DNA of 47,109 nucleotides, from contig JAHBTC010000007.1 in assembly GCA_019638835.1 (NCBI GenBank), forward strand, positions 1 through 47,109, written 5' to 3'. Of the stretch, positions 20,348 to 25,760 are shown in pieces. This DNA is from Fimbriimonadaceae bacterium (GTDB lineage Bacteria > Armatimonadota > Fimbriimonadia > Fimbriimonadales > Fimbriimonadaceae). A program made the translations under genes and the position numbers. The notes under the pieces are model-generated. The model saw only the letters and a list, made by a program, of their open reading frames with translations, made no database searches and was not told where the DNA came from. Position 1 is the stretch's first letter. Each line of letters opens with the position of its first letter.

Positions 20348-20386
20348 TGCGCCCCTGCTTTCTTTGAAAGTGGGGGCGCATTGTTT
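20348..20386 (+). terminator. Rho-independent terminator of the pilin-lipoprotein transcript
   Basis: A 15-bp stem (20348-20362 with 20366-20380, two G-T pairs) closes a three-base loop TTT and is followed by TTGTTT. It sits 20 bases after the lipoprotein stop. The right arm overlaps the darA promoter region. Confidence 0.75.
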
Positions 20387-20391
20387 ATAAT
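20364..20391 (+). promoter_or_regulatory. Candidate sigma-70 promoter for darA-holB
   Basis: TTGAAA (20364-20369) and a perfect TATAAT (20386-20391) are separated by 16 bp. Transcription would start about 10 bases before the darA ATG, giving a very short leader. The -35 box lies within the loop and right arm of the preceding terminator hairpin. Confidence 0.6.
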
Positions 20392-20407: not shown

Positions 20408-20740
20408 ATGAAACTCGCCGTCTGTGTTGTCCATAACCGTGATCGAAATCGCTTGACTGATGAATTAGTCAAGGCGGGCTTCAAGTTCACGATCATGGGC
20501 TCAACTGGCGGATTCCTTCGGGAAGGGAATACCACCCTGTTCATTGGTCTGGAAGATGCGGAGATCCCTTTGCTCAAAGAATTGGTGCAAGCGAACTGTC
20601 AGGCCCGGGAGCAAATGGTGAACTTGACTCCTTTCGAGTCGACACCAGCCGGGGCGGGTTTCATGTCGGCGCCCGTCAAGGTGCCAGTGGGCGGCGCTGT
20701 CCTCTTCTTCCTCCCAGTGGATGAGTTCACCCGGTTCTAA
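20408..20740 (+). CDS. darA: Cyclic-di-AMP receptor, PII-like (DarA/YaaQ family)
   Basis: 110 residues, the family length. The family forms a PII-like trimer that binds c-di-AMP. The N-terminus MKLAVCVVHNRDRNRLTDEL is the first strand and helix; FTIMGSTGGFLREGNTTLFIGLED is the signature region with the G-S-T-G-G-F-L loop that contacts the nucleotide. The C-terminal VGGAVLFFLPVDEFTRF closes the sheet. Its end overlaps the start of holB by 20 bp. In Firmicutes yaaQ lies between tmk and holB, so the neighbourhood is conserved. The ATG is preceded by a good promoter but only a weak AGGG element. Confidence 0.93.
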   Translation: MKLAVCVVHNRDRNRLTDELVKAGFKFTIMGSTGGFLREGNTTLFIGLEDAEIPLLKELVQANCQAREQMVNLTPFESTPAGAGFMSAPVKVPVGGAVLFFLPVDEFTRF

Positions 20741-21629
20741 GTCAGTGTTTGATGCGGCACCTTACGTCAGAAGCGGAGCCCATGCGTTCCTGCTGTTTGG
20801 CACCGAAGGTGCGCCTCTAAAAGAAACCGCGGCCGCGATGTCTGCCCTTTGGACATGCGAAGATCAGGCGGCGACCATGCCTTGCGATGAGTGCCCACCA
20901 TGTCGGGCCCGGCGTGCCGGTGGACTTGTTGACGCCCAAGTGATTGAGCCGATGGGTAACCCGCCGATTCTCGGTATGGAGATCGTCAATGAGGTCAAAG
21001 GCACAAGAGCCGACAACTTCGAAGGCGTTCCGCTTCGTAAGTTTTTGCGGACTCGACCGATGGTGGCGCCAAAAAAGATCGTCTCGATTCACGACATCCA
21101 CCGGGCGAATAAGTCAGCGGCCAATGCATTGCTCAAGACCATAGAGGAGCCCCCCGACTATTCTCGTCTCGTATTGACTACAACCTCCTTGAGTTCGGTG
21201 CTGGCCACAATCCGATCACGTTGCGTTTGCTTGGCCGTAGAGAAGGTGTCGAGTCCTGCCGTAGCGGGGGTGCCCGAGTGGGGACACATCGCCCGCGACG
21301 AGGAGGAAACCGAGCATCTGGAACTTCTAGATCAGTTGCTTGAAAAGAGTGTTTCGTCGGAACATGGGGAGTGCATTCGGAATGGACATCTTTTCCGTAA
21401 ATGGGCCGATGAATGGAGGGAAAGGCGCGGGCTCTCGGCGCGTCAAGGGATTGCGGATGCGCTGACATTCATGGCCGAGTGGTGCCTCGCAAAAACACCA
21501 GAGTCGCACGACAACTTGAACGCAACCCTCAGCGCGCACCGCCTCATCTTAGGTAATGTACAGGAAGGCCTTGTCCTTGACGTCCTATTCATGCAATGGG
21601 CGGGAACAAGACAGGCTTTGCCTCGGTAA
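20721..21629 (+). CDS. holB: DNA polymerase III delta' subunit
   Basis: 302 residues. It is a clamp-loader subunit of the replicative polymerase. Visible features: an AAA+ fold with an early HAFLLFGTEGAPLKETAAAM, whose Walker A motif is degenerate as is normal for delta', a zinc-binding cluster C...CDECPPC, the stretch KKIVSIHDIHRANKSAANALLKTIEEPP (sensor region of the clamp-loader) and the arginine finger-bearing ATIRSRC. Its order after darA matches the conserved yaaQ-holB synteny. Start ATG 20721 lies within darA; no clear ribosome binding site, so coupled translation is likely. Confidence 0.94.
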   Translation: MSSPGSKSVFDAAPYVRSGAHAFLLFGTEGAPLKETAAAMSALWTCEDQAATMPCDECPPCRARRAGGLVDAQVIEPMGNPPILGMEIVNEVKGTRADNFEGVPLRKFLRTRPMVAPKKIVSIHDIHRANKSAANALLKTIEEPPDYSRLVLTTTSLSSVLATIRSRCVCLAVEKVSSPAVAGVPEWGHIARDEEETEHLELLDQLLEKSVSSEHGECIRNGHLFRKWADEWRERRGLSARQGIADALTFMAEWCLAKTPESHDNLNATLSAHRLILGNVQEGLVLDVLFMQWAGTRQALPR

Positions 21630-21649: not shown

Positions 21650-22240
21650 GTGATTGGATCATTCACCCGCGCCCTACAACGATCACAAACGGATCGCAAG
21701 CAACTGTTCGAGCAACTCATGGAGGAATCCTATCGCTCGGCGTATAACCTTGCGTATCGGTTGGCGGGCAACGGACATGACGCCGAAGATCTGTTGCAAG
21801 AGTCGTACGTTCGTGCGTTCCGATTCTTCAATCGCTACGATCAGAGCCTTCCGTTCACGAGTTGGTTCTTCCGCATCATCACCAACGTTCACATCGACAC
21901 TGTCCGACGAAAGAAGAAGCTCTCCTTCATCAGCCTTGATGCGGGGAAAGAGGACTCGGATCGGTCATGGGAATTACCTGACGAATCGGTCAATGCCGAC
22001 CGGCAGCTTATGGAGGAAACGCTCTCTGAGCCTCTCCAGATCGCGCTGGACGCAATGAACCCCGATTTTCGGCTGGCAGTTCTCTTTGCGGACGTTGAGG
22101 GGATGTCATACGAGGAAATCGCCGATATGATGGGTACGAGTGTGGGAACAGTTCGCTCTCGAGTTCACCGAGGCCGCAAACAGTTGCGGAAGAACATTGA
22201 GAAACTGCCTCGCAGTCTAAGGAGTGAGTGGCGAGCATGA
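21650..22240 (+). CDS. ECF-type RNA polymerase sigma factor (RpoE-like)
   Basis: 196 residues with a GTG start. Region 2 (residues about 25-90) includes AYNLAYRLAGNGHDAEDLLQESYVRAF and a -10 contact part SWFFRIITNVHIDTVRRKKK; region 4 (about 130-185) includes LAVLFADVEGMSYEEIADMMGTSVGTVRSRVHRGRKQLR, the helix-turn-helix that reads the -35 element. No region 1 or 3, so it is of the extracytoplasmic function group. It is the first gene of a four-gene operon with an anti-sigma factor, an RseB-like protein and HtrA, which suggests an envelope-stress circuit. Confidence 0.95.
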   Translation: MIGSFTRALQRSQTDRKQLFEQLMEESYRSAYNLAYRLAGNGHDAEDLLQESYVRAFRFFNRYDQSLPFTSWFFRIITNVHIDTVRRKKKLSFISLDAGKEDSDRSWELPDESVNADRQLMEETLSEPLQIALDAMNPDFRLAVLFADVEGMSYEEIADMMGTSVGTVRSRVHRGRKQLRKNIEKLPRSLRSEWRA

Positions 22241-22683
22241 GTTGCAACCGATTTGAACCACTGCTCTCGGCCATGATTGATGGTGAGTTAGATGCTCAGG
22301 AGTGCTGGCATGTCCGCGAGCACGTATCCGAGTGTGAGGTTTGCGCGGCTCATTTAGAAGCTCTTCGAGCGCTGAAATGGGAGTTGGGGAGCATTTCGAC
22401 TCCCGAGCCGGATGAAGATAGTTTTGCGCGAGTGCGGACTAGAGTAGTGGCGGAGATTGGCCACTCGTCTCATCGCCCGCAAGAGCGTTGGGGGATGGCG
22501 GGCGGCATTGCGGCCGCTTCAATTTTGGCCGTGTTACTTGCGGTTCAGTTATCGGCGCCGCCGAGAATTCCGGTCGCAACGGACCAATTTGATCCATCAC
22601 TGGATCTCGGATACGCAGGAAGCGCTTCAACCGTGTCGTCTTATGCACCTGTCTATCCGGTCAATCACACTCGCAGCCGCTAA
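22237..22683 (+). CDS. Anti-sigma factor with zinc-finger (ZAS) and one membrane helix
   Basis: 148 residues from the ATG that overlaps the sigma stop (ATGA); an upstream GTG is unlikely. The N-terminus MSCNRFEPLLSAMIDGELDA leads into the zinc signature H29-x3-C33-x2-C36 typical of zinc-binding anti-sigma domains that clamp region 4 and 2 of ECF sigma factors. A membrane helix follows (GMAGGIAAASILAVLLAVQL, about residues 87-106). The short C-terminal tail would face the periplasm. It should hold the ECF factor inactive until stress signals release it; release could involve the HtrA protease encoded two genes later (inference). Confidence 0.9.
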   Translation: MSCNRFEPLLSAMIDGELDAQECWHVREHVSECEVCAAHLEALRALKWELGSISTPEPDEDSFARVRTRVVAEIGHSSHRPQERWGMAGGIAAASILAVLLAVQLSAPPRIPVATDQFDPSLDLGYAGSASTVSSYAPVYPVNHTRSR

Positions 22684-23698
22684 TCTAGCCCTGCTAGCTT
22701 GCGCGGTCGCGCAAGATCCCTACTTTTCGCTGGAAGCCATGCTTGAGCGACAAGGTCGAATCTCGGCGACTGCCCTTCAGCGCAGGGCCGATCCATTTGC
22801 CAACGGAACTGTATTAGTAAAGGTCGTGACTCGCTCGGATAAAGGCGAAATGAGCCGAATCATCCAGCCTCTTGAACTGCAGGGTATTCGGCAACTGGAC
22901 GACCGAAGCACAATGCGGACCTACTATCCGGACTCGAACACGATCAGCAACCAAATGTCTTCGGCCCGGTGGCGGCTAGGGATTCCGGAGCGAATGCGAT
23001 TGATTCGGGCGAACTATAAGGTCACATTTGGTGAGCGAGCGAACATTGCCGAGAAGCGGGCACAGGCGCTCATTCTTGATCCGAAGTCGGACTACCTTGA
23101 TAAGCGGATCATTTGGTACGACGTGAACAACCGCTTCATCCTTCGTTATCAAGTGATGGGGCGTGATGGGTTAGAAAACCGAGTCGATACGCTTTCGGTC
23201 ACCTATGACCAGCCGTCTTCCTCCGAGTTTAACTTGCCGGAGGCAGAAAGAGTCCGCAACCGATATGGCCCGTTTGCTATGGCTTCTGCCGGTGACGCCG
23301 AGAGCTATTTGAATGCCTACCCCCCTGTGCCTTCCTCTTGGCCTTACGGATTCAAGCAAGAGGCACTCCAAATTGTAGGGTCCGAAAACGAACCGATTTT
23401 GGCGGTGCGTTTGACCGATGGGATGGCTCCGATCACCGTTTACTTCTGGAACCCTGACCAACACCGTCGACCGCCGATTCGTTCCGGCCCGATTGTCGAA
23501 CTTTCTGGCCTCAAGATTGGGGGAGCAGGAGATGGTCAATCTCGACTGATTGAGCGACTTGTGAACCATGCAGGTCGGCGATCTTCTTGGGACCAGGAAC
23601 AGATTGGGCTGGACCGACTGTTTGAAAATGACATAGGAGTCCTCCGGTTCGATAACCAGAGTCATCCTCGAACGCAGTACAGAGAAGCAACCCCATGA
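22643..23698 (+). CDS. RseB/MucB-like periplasmic regulator of the sigma factor
   Basis: 351 residues from the Met at 22643, giving a signal peptide (SITLAAANLALLACAVAQ). The start lies inside the anti-sigma gene by 41 bp. The mature part has two domains: residues about 20-190 look like the LolA/LppX-like fold used by RseB to bind misfolded-lipoprotein signals (FANGTVLVKVVTRSDKGEMSR, then RRWRLGIPERM...), and residues about 250-350 are a second domain with VYFWNPDQHRRPP. Homology to MucB/RseB is judged from layout and operon position rather than from a strong motif. In E. coli RseB protects the anti-sigma factor from proteolysis. Confidence 0.62.
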   Translation: MHLSIRSITLAAANLALLACAVAQDPYFSLEAMLERQGRISATALQRRADPFANGTVLVKVVTRSDKGEMSRIIQPLELQGIRQLDDRSTMRTYYPDSNTISNQMSSARWRLGIPERMRLIRANYKVTFGERANIAEKRAQALILDPKSDYLDKRIIWYDVNNRFILRYQVMGRDGLENRVDTLSVTYDQPSSSEFNLPEAERVRNRYGPFAMASAGDAESYLNAYPPVPSSWPYGFKQEALQIVGSENEPILAVRLTDGMAPITVYFWNPDQHRRPPIRSGPIVELSGLKIGGAGDGQSRLIERLVNHAGRRSSWDQEQIGLDRLFENDIGVLRFDNQSHPRTQYREATP

Positions 23699-25245
23699 GC
23701 AAGATTCAACGCGTGTTCCGTTCTCCGGCCACCCTACTGATTGCCGGAGCCCTCATTGTTGGCGCCGGATTTGCCGGTGCCCAACTCCGCCATAACGTGA
23801 GTTCGCCGAGCATGTTGAATTGGTCTGGTGCCGCAGTTCAGCCCGTAGGGAACGTTTTCCCCGAAACGGGACCAGCAACCACGCTTCAAGAGTTTGAGAA
23901 CGAGTTGACCACCATGGCCGAGAAGGCCGGAACCGCTGTGGTTACGATTGTCGCGAGTGACAGCGGCCAAGGTTCGGGCTTCGTGTACCGATCCGATGGA
24001 TGGATTGTTACAAACGGTCACGTCGCCGACGGGAATGAGACCGTCAAGGTGCTGTTTAACGACGGCAAAGAGCTAGAAGGCAAAGTCTACAGCGCGAATG
24101 ACCCCACGCTTGACATTGCCTTAATCAAAGTGAGTGCGTCGGACCTGCCGACTTTGCGACTTGCCGATAGTGATCGCATTCGTGTCGGCCAGTATGCCGT
24201 GGCAATTGGCGCACCGTTTGGCTATGAGAGTACGGTGACGATCGGACACGTGAGTGGTCTCCACCGAAGCGCGACCATCCCGGTGCGAGGCATGAGCGCT
24301 CTGCCCGAAAGAGCTTACTACGGCATGATTCAGACCGACGCATCCATCAACCCTGGCAATAGCGGCGGCCCCCTCATCGATCTCTCTGGCAACGTGATCG
24401 GCGTGAACTCCTATATCGTTTCCCCAACTGGAACCAGTGTTGGCGCAGGGTTCGCGATCCCGGCGAAGACAGTTCGGATCGTCGCTGATGAGATTATTCA
24501 GTCAGGCAAACTCAAGCGAGCCTTCCTTGGCCTTGCTCCGGCCGACCTCAAGCCCTTCGAGTTGAAGGAAATAAATCTTCCGGGCGGCGCGCGAGTCGCG
24601 ACGATTGACACAGACACGCCTGCTGGACGTGCTGGCCTGCGAGAAGGCGACATTATTACCAAGATCAACGGAACGCCGGTGCTTAACGAGGCCGATGTTC
24701 GCATCGCTATGGTAGCCGCCGATCCAGGTGACAACGTTTCGATTGAGTATCGACGGGGTAATGACACTCGATCCGCAAATGTTCAAGTAGCAGCCGTGCC
24801 AGAAGATCAACGTCCGCAAACGCGGCAACCACAGTCGGGTCGGGTCATCCCGGACGAGATCCCAGACGATCTTCGTGATCGACTTGAGCGACAGTTCGGC
24901 ATCCCGTTTGGTGACGAAACTCAGCCACAGACGCCCGAGTCATCTGGTCCCGTCCGATTGGGCGCCAGAGTGCAGGAACTGACGGATGAGACGCGAACTC
25001 AGTACCAGCTGCCGAAGGAGGCGAAGGGCGTGGTAATCATCTCCATTGACCCGAATTCAAATGCGGCAATGCTTGGACTTGAGATTGGCGACGTACTACG
25101 CGAGATCAACGGAAAGGCGGTTGGTAGTCTTGACGAAGTATCGGCGGCACTCCAATCAGCGAGTTCCACACGCAAACTCACCGTACGTGCGGACCGATTC
25201 GTAGATGGACAGCGAACGAGTATTCAGGGTGCAATCAGCCGCTAA
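23695..25245 (+). CDS. HtrA/DegP-family periplasmic serine protease with two PDZ domains
   Basis: 516 residues. An N-terminal membrane segment (residues 11-29) anchors or exports it. The trypsin-like domain has the catalytic triad H109 (TNGHVADG), D140 (LDIALIKV) and S223 (NPGNSGGPL). Two PDZ domains follow, at about 290-375 and 415-505 (GLREGDIITKINGTPV and AAMLGLEIGDVLREINGKAV). Family members degrade or refold misfolded envelope proteins. Its ATG overlaps the end of the RseB-like gene (ATGA), completing the operon sigma-anti-sigma-RseB-HtrA. A strong terminator follows. Confidence 0.93.
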   Translation: MSKIQRVFRSPATLLIAGALIVGAGFAGAQLRHNVSSPSMLNWSGAAVQPVGNVFPETGPATTLQEFENELTTMAEKAGTAVVTIVASDSGQGSGFVYRSDGWIVTNGHVADGNETVKVLFNDGKELEGKVYSANDPTLDIALIKVSASDLPTLRLADSDRIRVGQYAVAIGAPFGYESTVTIGHVSGLHRSATIPVRGMSALPERAYYGMIQTDASINPGNSGGPLIDLSGNVIGVNSYIVSPTGTSVGAGFAIPAKTVRIVADEIIQSGKLKRAFLGLAPADLKPFELKEINLPGGARVATIDTDTPAGRAGLREGDIITKINGTPVLNEADVRIAMVAADPGDNVSIEYRRGNDTRSANVQVAAVPEDQRPQTRQPQSGRVIPDEIPDDLRDRLERQFGIPFGDETQPQTPESSGPVRLGARVQELTDETRTQYQLPKEAKGVVIISIDPNSNAAMLGLEIGDVLREINGKAVGSLDEVSAALQSASSTRKLTVRADRFVDGQRTSIQGAISR

Positions 25246-25266
25246 TCTTTAGAAGGATAGGCGAGG

Positions 25267-25300
25267 ACGACCTCGGTGCGGAGACGCACCGAGGTCGTTT
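25267..25300 (+). terminator. Rho-independent terminator after htrA-type gene
   Basis: A perfect 14-bp stem (25267-25280 with 25285-25298) with a GAGA tetraloop, followed by a short T tract. It lies between the htrA-type stop at 25245 and the convergent Fur gene stop at 25305, so it ends the stress operon; the other strand lacks a T tract. Confidence 0.85.
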
Positions 25301-25304
25301 CGGT

Positions 25305-25760
25305 TTATGCCGTAAGGCAGGATTGGCACTGGCCAAGGATTTCGATGCGCACGGATCGGGCCGAGAAGCCAACGCCCTCTAAAGGAACGGAAACGCTCTG
25401 CCGGATGAGCTCGGGAACCTCAAGCTCAATCACCCGTCCGCAAGTCTCGCAGACTGCGTGTTCGGAGTCCTCTTCATGGCATTCCCCGAGCGAACAGGCC
25501 GAATATCCGCCCGAAACTCCAATAAAATGCACTAAGCCGATTTCTTGGAAGGCAGCAAGGATGCGATAAACGGTGACGACGTCCAGATGACCGCCCGCAT
25601 CCCGCACTCCCTGATGGATTTGTTGCGCGTTTAGTGGCTGTTTAGAGCAAAACAGTGTACGCAACACAAGCAGGCGAGGCGAAGTGACGCGCAATCCGTG
25701 GCTCCGCATTGTCTCAATCGCTGCGCTCTCACGGGCTAAATTCGCCTTTTTTTGCCTCAC
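25305..25760 (-). CDS. Fur-family metal-responsive transcriptional regulator
   Basis: 151 residues with a GTG start; a Met 17 codons later is a shorter option. The winged-helix DNA-binding region is MRSHGLRVTSPRLLVLRTLF...GGHLDVVTVYRILAAFQEIGLVHFI. The dimer domain has HAVCETCGRVIEL and a late CQSC pair, a structural zinc site (four Cys). The metal-sensing site cannot be assigned to iron, zinc or peroxide with certainty; a Zur-like role is possible. The paired C-x2-C motifs are typical. It is convergent to the HtrA-type gene and divergent from a small basic protein gene. Confidence 0.9.
   Translation of the reverse strand: MRQKKANLARESAAIETMRSHGLRVTSPRLLVLRTLFCSKQPLNAQQIHQGVRDAGGHLDVVTVYRILAAFQEIGLVHFIGVSGGYSACSLGECHEEDSEHAVCETCGRVIELEVPELIRQSVSVPLEGVGFSARSVRIEILGQCQSCLTA

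Follow-up and report, generated by a model that had tools for sequence, protein, structure and literature searches.

The genome of a Fimbriimonadaceae bacterium carries, on the forward strand of a 47,109-nucleotide stretch of DNA (contig JAHBTC010000007.1, assembly GCA_019638835.1; hereafter the window), four tightly packed genes for an extracytoplasmic function (ECF) sigma factor, a zinc-binding anti-sigma (ZAS) protein, an RseB/MucB-like protein and an HtrA/Do-type serine protease. We think it probable, from sequence and by analogy with known systems, that these genes make up an envelope-stress operon in which the RseB-like protein guards the anti-sigma factor until envelope damage frees the sigma factor, with feedback through a predicted promoter, P1, upstream of the sigma factor gene.

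Four coupled genes and their conservation

All four open reading frames (ORFs) and their Pfam identities were found at the place and on the strand given for them in an earlier note on this DNA: the sigma factor gene at 21650–22240, the ZAS gene at 22237–22683, the RseB-like gene at 22643–23698 and the HtrA gene at 23695–25245. The tight coupling that the note described is likewise borne out, with the sigma factor stop and ZAS start sharing an ATGA (22237–22240), the RseB-like stop and HtrA start sharing another (23695–23698), and the ATG of the RseB-like gene at 22643 lying 41 nt inside the ZAS ORF, which stops at 22683.

By sequence comparison the middle protein is truly related to MucB/RseB, the point on which the earlier note had made its reading depend. 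The window protein matched the MucB_RseB N-domain (PF03888) at 29.5 bits, above the cut-off of 22.3, and a profile of 40 RseB-like sequences, the window's included, aligned with Pseudomonas aeruginosa MucB (6in8) over both of its domains (E 7e-9, profile 29–326 on chain 4–295) and in part with Escherichia coli RseB (2v42, E 7e-8). PF03888 was detected in 34 of the 40 members and the C-domain, PF17188, in 17 (E up to 0.1). By a simple hydropathy rule, with no dedicated signal-peptide predictor, a hydrophobic N-terminus suggesting export was found in the window protein and in 36 of the 40 members. A search of the PDB with the single RseB-like sequence returned only chance matches to CoA-disulfide reductase, where the 40-member profile gave MucB; a single-protein contig search matched a planctomycete contig once, over 31 residues, which we took as chance. 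Two archaeal genomes used as controls (Haloferax and Methanosarcina) also gave PF03888 matches above cut-off; the MucB_RseB family thus extends beyond sigma regulation, and a PF03888 match is not in itself proof of a sigma-linked RseB.

The gene order is well conserved in relatives. A search with the window's RseB-like protein gave matches in 42 of 61 genomes. Of the 44 non-window matches 40 were fetched, and the exclusion of L071, a paralogous set, left 39 loci. The ECF and ZAS genes lie directly upstream of the RseB-like gene in 39 of 39 loci and HtrA lies directly downstream in 37, so the arrangement reflects more than chance. The 19 unmatched genomes yielded 15 loci with a sigma–ZAS–HtrA order lacking RseB, of which 14 belong to family f2 and one, L087, to the window's family, f1; six f2 genomes carried a separate sigma–ZAS–RseB set. 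Across a sample of the phylum, PF03888 was above cut-off in 174 of 251 genomes. In the 39 usable phylum loci, drawn from the best matches, ECF, ZAS and RseB genes stood together in 35, with HtrA downstream in two and upstream in one; L112 and L117, from distant families, carry all four genes. Judging from these sequences and a quick tree, the four-gene layout may be old, with RseB lost at least twice.

The sigma factor, which contains Sigma70_r2 and r4_2, is closest to actinobacterial SigE. The earlier note had likened the pair to RpoE and RseA, and the curated models did not bear this out: SigE was the best model for the sigma factor (169.8 bits, short of its cut-off of 265), RpoE scored 94.2 bits (cut-off 236.15), which places the protein outside RpoE/AlgU, and the anti-sigma protein reached 12.8 bits with the RseA model (cut-off 165). 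SigE was also the top model, always under its cut-off, for all five other clade members tested, whereas three RseB-linked sigma factors outside the clade had other best models. In the quick tree of 104 sigma factors, those of the operon formed one group with those of the RseB-less HtrA operons and with L107, L112 and L117 from distant families, and this group stood apart from most RseB-linked sigma factors. The general ECF/sigma-70 model gave 19 above-cut-off matches in the window's 2.74-Mb genome (G000).

The anti-sigma protein is assigned to zf-HC2 (PF13490; 32.2 bits, cut-off 22.2) and stays below the cut-off of the RsrA model (26.5 bits against 62.5). Its HxxxCxxC motif, at residue 29 in the window, is present in 40 of 40 loci. 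A hydrophobic segment at residues 87–105 is followed by an outer tail of about 43 residues, and a membrane-type segment with an outer tail recurs in nearly all ZAS relatives. The end of the tail (RDQ..Y..G.DPlsG..PV) is conserved in operons with RseB; no such ending is apparent in the 15 without it, a difference that is suggestive only. A tail profile carried to other families gave no significant match (top 9.0 bits, versus 6.9 in shuffles), so that docking of RseB on the tail is no more than a suggestion.

The HtrA protein combines Trypsin_2 with two PDZ stretches and an N-terminal hydrophobic segment. Its catalytic motifs, TNGHV (106) and GNSGGP (221) in the window, are present in 37 of 38 proteins overall, and it scored 324.2 bits with TIGR02037, under the curated cut-off of 416.2. 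Elsewhere the genome encodes another HtrA, an RseP-like protein, LpxC and a member of the Omp85 family, which makes a diderm envelope with lipid A likely.

Predicted promoters and candidate regulon

The earlier note had proposed looking for an ECF-type −35/−10 motif upstream of 21650, and a predicted one, P1, lies on the forward strand at 21603–21628: GGAAC (21603–21607), N17 and GGTA (21625–21628), the −10 element overlapping the stop codon of the preceding holB-like gene. The window's copy is a weak instance, with a spacer of 17 and GGTA in place of CGTA. An open count of word pairs in 38 upstream regions found GAAC-N19-GTA in 25, where any pair reached at most 8 of 38 in 20 shuffles, and GGAAC itself occurred in 37 of the 38, against a mean of 8.8 in block shuffles (in these shuffles, non-overlapping pairs of bases change places, and dinucleotide content is preserved only approximately). 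Of the 38 loci, 35 have the P1 pattern, GGAAC-N17/18-NGTA, no more than 75 nt from the sigma factor start, and none has its NGTT counterpart there. This pattern was derived from the same 38 regions on which it is counted; the 15 RseB-less operons, which were not used for discovery, provide a separate test, and 14 of them carry the P1 motif. Across the phylum P1 is not general: of 36 RseB triads, 3 carried an NGTA-type P1 and 12 a GAAC-N16-CGT type. About 60 nt upstream of P1, a second ECF-like site (GGAAC ... GCGTCTAA) was observed in five sister-family loci (L077, L079, L080, L081 and L083).

A further predicted promoter, P2, lies inside the RseB-like ORF at 23596–23622, again on the forward strand and 99 nt before the HtrA ATG, with GGAAC (23596–23600), N18 and TGTT (23619–23622), a motif of the NGTT type. 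P1 and P2 are both imperfect copies in the window, and the loose pattern occurs seven times over the two window strands. In the 38 loci, GGAAC-N17/18-NGTT is found within 150 nt before HtrA in 24, against a mean of 0.21 and a maximum of 3 of 38 in 200 block shuffles, and the NGTA type is found there in none; each −10 type keeps to its own place. Allowing 160 nt, P2 is found in 26 of 38 loci, comprising 25 of 30 in the window's family and 1 of 8 in f5 and f3. Eleven of these 26 sites lie past the RseB stop and 15 inside the RseB ORF, so coding constraint does not explain P2. Along the operon, the motif is rare outside both promoter regions. A paralogous ECF sigma factor gene in the window's genome (L151/L230, at G000:C90) and its counterparts L088, L089 and L093 show no evident anti-sigma neighbour and have GGAAC-N17-NGTT upstream.

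Candidate targets beyond the operon came in part from the sister family, where the strict P1 pattern gave 23 sites in 13 genomes, compared with 5 for the reversed pattern. Ten of the 23 precede the operon, five an RpoD-like sigma factor gene (in 5 of the 13 genomes), two Hsp20 and one Lon, and five have no clear target; the identities at L240, L246, L242 and L235 come from Pfam/NCBIfam and those of the other four from likeness to them. No RpoD-like sigma factor gene with a P1 motif was seen at the sites inspected in the window's family. In that family, 12 of 56 non-operon sites are followed after 8–90 nt by an ORF that begins with a signal-peptide-like stretch, compared with a random background of 3.3% of 11,200 positions in the same loci (binomial p ~2e-7, in a test to which two near relatives contribute sites that are not independent), and the 12 include genes for an outer-membrane efflux protein, an S41 peptidase and a PDZ-bearing hydrolase. 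The earlier note had also proposed looking for the ECF motif upstream of other envelope genes; we regard these predicted target genes as leads. In all three genomes of the window's genus (L224, at G000:C186; L273; L301), a gene for a DnaJ J-domain/WD40 fusion protein lies downstream of a P1-like site.

A proposed envelope-stress circuit and its alternatives

In the envelope-stress circuit that we propose, the membrane ZAS protein would hold the SigE-type ECF sigma factor while the periplasmic RseB-like protein binds the outer tail of ZAS and shields it from cleavage. Envelope damage, in the form of misfolded exported protein or of free lipid taken up by RseB, signals that have been put forward for RseB/MucB, would make RseB let go; our model for this signal step is the lipid-induced dissociation of MucA and MucB in P. 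aeruginosa (PMC7400510). ZAS would then be destroyed by an HtrA acting as site-1 protease and an RseP-like protein acting as site-2 protease, and the freed sigma factor would transcribe its own operon from P1 along with a dispersed set of chaperone, protease and exported-protein genes. By clearing damaged protein, HtrA would lower the signal, and in the window's family it could also be produced from P2, leaving protease supply partly uncoupled from the sigma/anti-sigma pair. At the sequence level, support for this circuit comes from the gene identities and their order, P1 and P2 at fixed places, the ZAS tail, and the RseP-like, second HtrA, LpxC and Omp85 genes; we infer every step of binding, cleavage, signalling and transcription by analogy, with the MucB/RseB and SigE systems as models.

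Several observations weigh against this circuit. The window's RseB-like protein scored 12 bits with PF17188, under the cut-off of 30.1. For the proposed cascade, the RseP-like candidate, a 547-residue ORF, scored 112.6 bits plus two lesser stretches, short of the cut-off of 147.55, and no site-1 protease was assigned. The RpoD-like, Hsp20 and Lon targets come solely from the sister family, in which the HtrA operon lacks RseB. In the window's genome, GGAACY-N16/17-CGTW gave 37 sites, most of them inside ORFs, versus 88 for the reversed control, and in 12 genomes of the window's family the P1 pattern gave 68 versus 274; single target predictions are therefore weak. The window's own P1 and P2 fail the stricter pattern used in these genome-wide scans.

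The sigma/ZAS pair could instead sense redox or zinc inside the cell, as SigR–RsrA does, with the RseB-like protein and HtrA as output genes only. The HxxxCxxC motif in all 40 anti-sigma proteins, the 26.5-bit match to the RsrA model and the sister-family P1 motifs before genes for the cytoplasmic proteostasis proteins Hsp20 and Lon fit such a sensor. Yet nearly all of the anti-sigma proteins have a membrane-type segment and an outer tail, the RsrA score is well under 62.5, and RseB-like genes sit beside ECF–ZAS pairs in 35 of 39 phylum loci. The zinc motif, moreover, occurs in about half of membrane-bound class I anti-sigma factors and can be structural (PMC7406223). We consider a cytoplasmic sensor improbable on this balance. 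We give still less weight to the idea that the middle protein is a LolA-fold carrier of lipid or lipoprotein, merely co-transcribed and no regulator of the anti-sigma factor. The RseB family is itself related to LolA, and LolA_like was also matched by 8 of the 40 members, but MucB/RseB matches better and more widely (34 of 40), the alignment to MucB is full-length, and across the phylum RseB-like genes stand next to ECF–ZAS pairs. The short conserved end of the ZAS tail, apparent with RseB and not in the 15 operons lacking it, points suggestively the same way.

A variant compatible with the envelope-stress circuit would have P2 read by a paralogous ECF sigma factor, 'ECF-B', so that HtrA integrates two sigma factors. 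It would account for the segregation of −10 types, with NGTA only before the sigma factor gene and NGTT only before HtrA, and for the near restriction of P2 to the window's family. NGTT-type sites also lie upstream of the paralogous ECF genes in the window's genome (L151) and at L088, L089 and L093, the last three forming a starred clade near the operon sigma factors (L151 is outside that tree). Against it, the paralog sites have a spacer of 17, whereas 22 of 26 P2 sites have 18, like P1; a single ECF sigma factor can accept both triplets; and the presence of the paralog is recorded for these four loci. We therefore hold this variant to be possible but doubtful.

Operon borders and relation to known systems

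The neighbourhood bears on how far the operon is a unit. Upstream on the same strand lie a DarA-like cyclic-di-AMP receptor gene (20408–20740; PF06153, 111.2 bits, cut-off 27) and a holB-like gene for DNA polymerase III delta-prime (20721–21629; PF13177, 107.6 bits), which overlaps darA and ends 20 nt before the sigma factor start. These abutting genes make the operon boundary at 21650 doubtful. Together with the predicted internal promoter before HtrA, they speak against the earlier description of the four genes as self-contained and built as one transcript. A sigma70-type promoter-like site before darA (TTGAAA-16-TATAAT, 20364–20391, forward strand, 11 of 12 matches) is a possible start for read-through into the operon, although such sites are weak evidence here, with three found in the region versus 2.6 expected by chance. 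Among the 39 relatives' loci, 23 have holB no more than 155 nt upstream of the sigma factor gene, where it usually overlaps a DarA-type receptor gene, and this recurrent arrangement might couple the basal expression of the operon to darA/holB. Downstream, a terminator-like hairpin with a 16-bp stem (25265–25300) separates the HtrA gene from a convergent FUR-family gene on the reverse strand (25305–25760). The strong terminator claimed earlier holds as regards folding, as the minimum energy of 25246–25315 (−40.3 kcal/mol, z −6.5) was equalled by none of 200 shuffles, but the U tail is weak and the hairpin was not picked up by a terminator consensus scan.

HtrA in one operon with sigma, anti-sigma and RseB genes is less novel than the earlier note supposed. 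In P. aeruginosa, algU-mucA-mucB-mucC-mucD forms one self-regulated operon (PMC3815931), which likewise joins an ECF sigma factor, a membrane anti-sigma factor, RseB/MucB and an HtrA-type protease. Unlike that operon, the one described here has a SigE-like rather than an AlgU/RpoE-like sigma factor, a zf-HC2 rather than an RseA/MucA anti-sigma protein, and no mucC-like gene between RseB and HtrA. MucD is reportedly subject to regulation of its own, to go by the title 'Independent regulation of MucD', which may parallel P2.

In Mycobacterium tuberculosis, rseA-htrA-tatB lies beside sigE, a promoter lies between sigE and rseA, and sigB is a direct SigE target (PMC10027907). The operon resembles this locus in its nearest sigma model, in having HtrA linked to the anti-sigma gene and in being split by an extra promoter (predicted here), and the control of sigB would match the sister-family RpoD-like sigma factor gene with a P1 motif. 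It differs in that an RseB-like gene is inserted, in having a convergent FUR-family gene and no tatB downstream, and in a sigma factor that stays under the SigE cut-off. For E. coli, PMC8103513 gives GGAACTT as the RpoE −35 element and describes about 55% of ECF sigma factors as autoregulated. Shared with rpoE-rseA-rseB-rseC are the RseB sensor, autoregulation (predicted here), an HtrA output and a GGAAC-type −35 element, whereas the sigma and anti-sigma families differ, the −10 element here is of CGTA/GTT type, and HtrA is linked here while degP is unlinked there.

The four-gene loci L112 and L117, and the grouping of RseB-less with RseB-bearing operons in the quick tree, would fit a scenario in which the actinobacterial SigE–anti-sigma–HtrA and proteobacterial RpoE/AlgU–RseB–MucD systems both descend, in trimmed form, from a single ancestral diderm operon. 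RseB would have been lost in the actinobacterial locus, the anti-sigma factor replaced in one of the two, and a second ECF sigma input to HtrA gained through P2 in the window's family. We regard this scenario as unlikely.

Together, our results describe known parts in an uncommon mix that is well conserved in relatives: a mycobacteria-like switch, a Pseudomonas-like sensor and an apparent extra protease promoter. A partial literature search found no paper on RseB or ECF anti-sigma factors in Armatimonad*, and the operon offers a testable envelope-stress pathway for this little-studied bacterial group. Its paired promoters with different −10 triplets raise the question of why a protease inside a stress operon should have a promoter of its own, and the predicted regulon of an RpoD-like sigma factor, Hsp20, Lon and exported proteins would tie an RseB-type sensor to a SigE-type output network.

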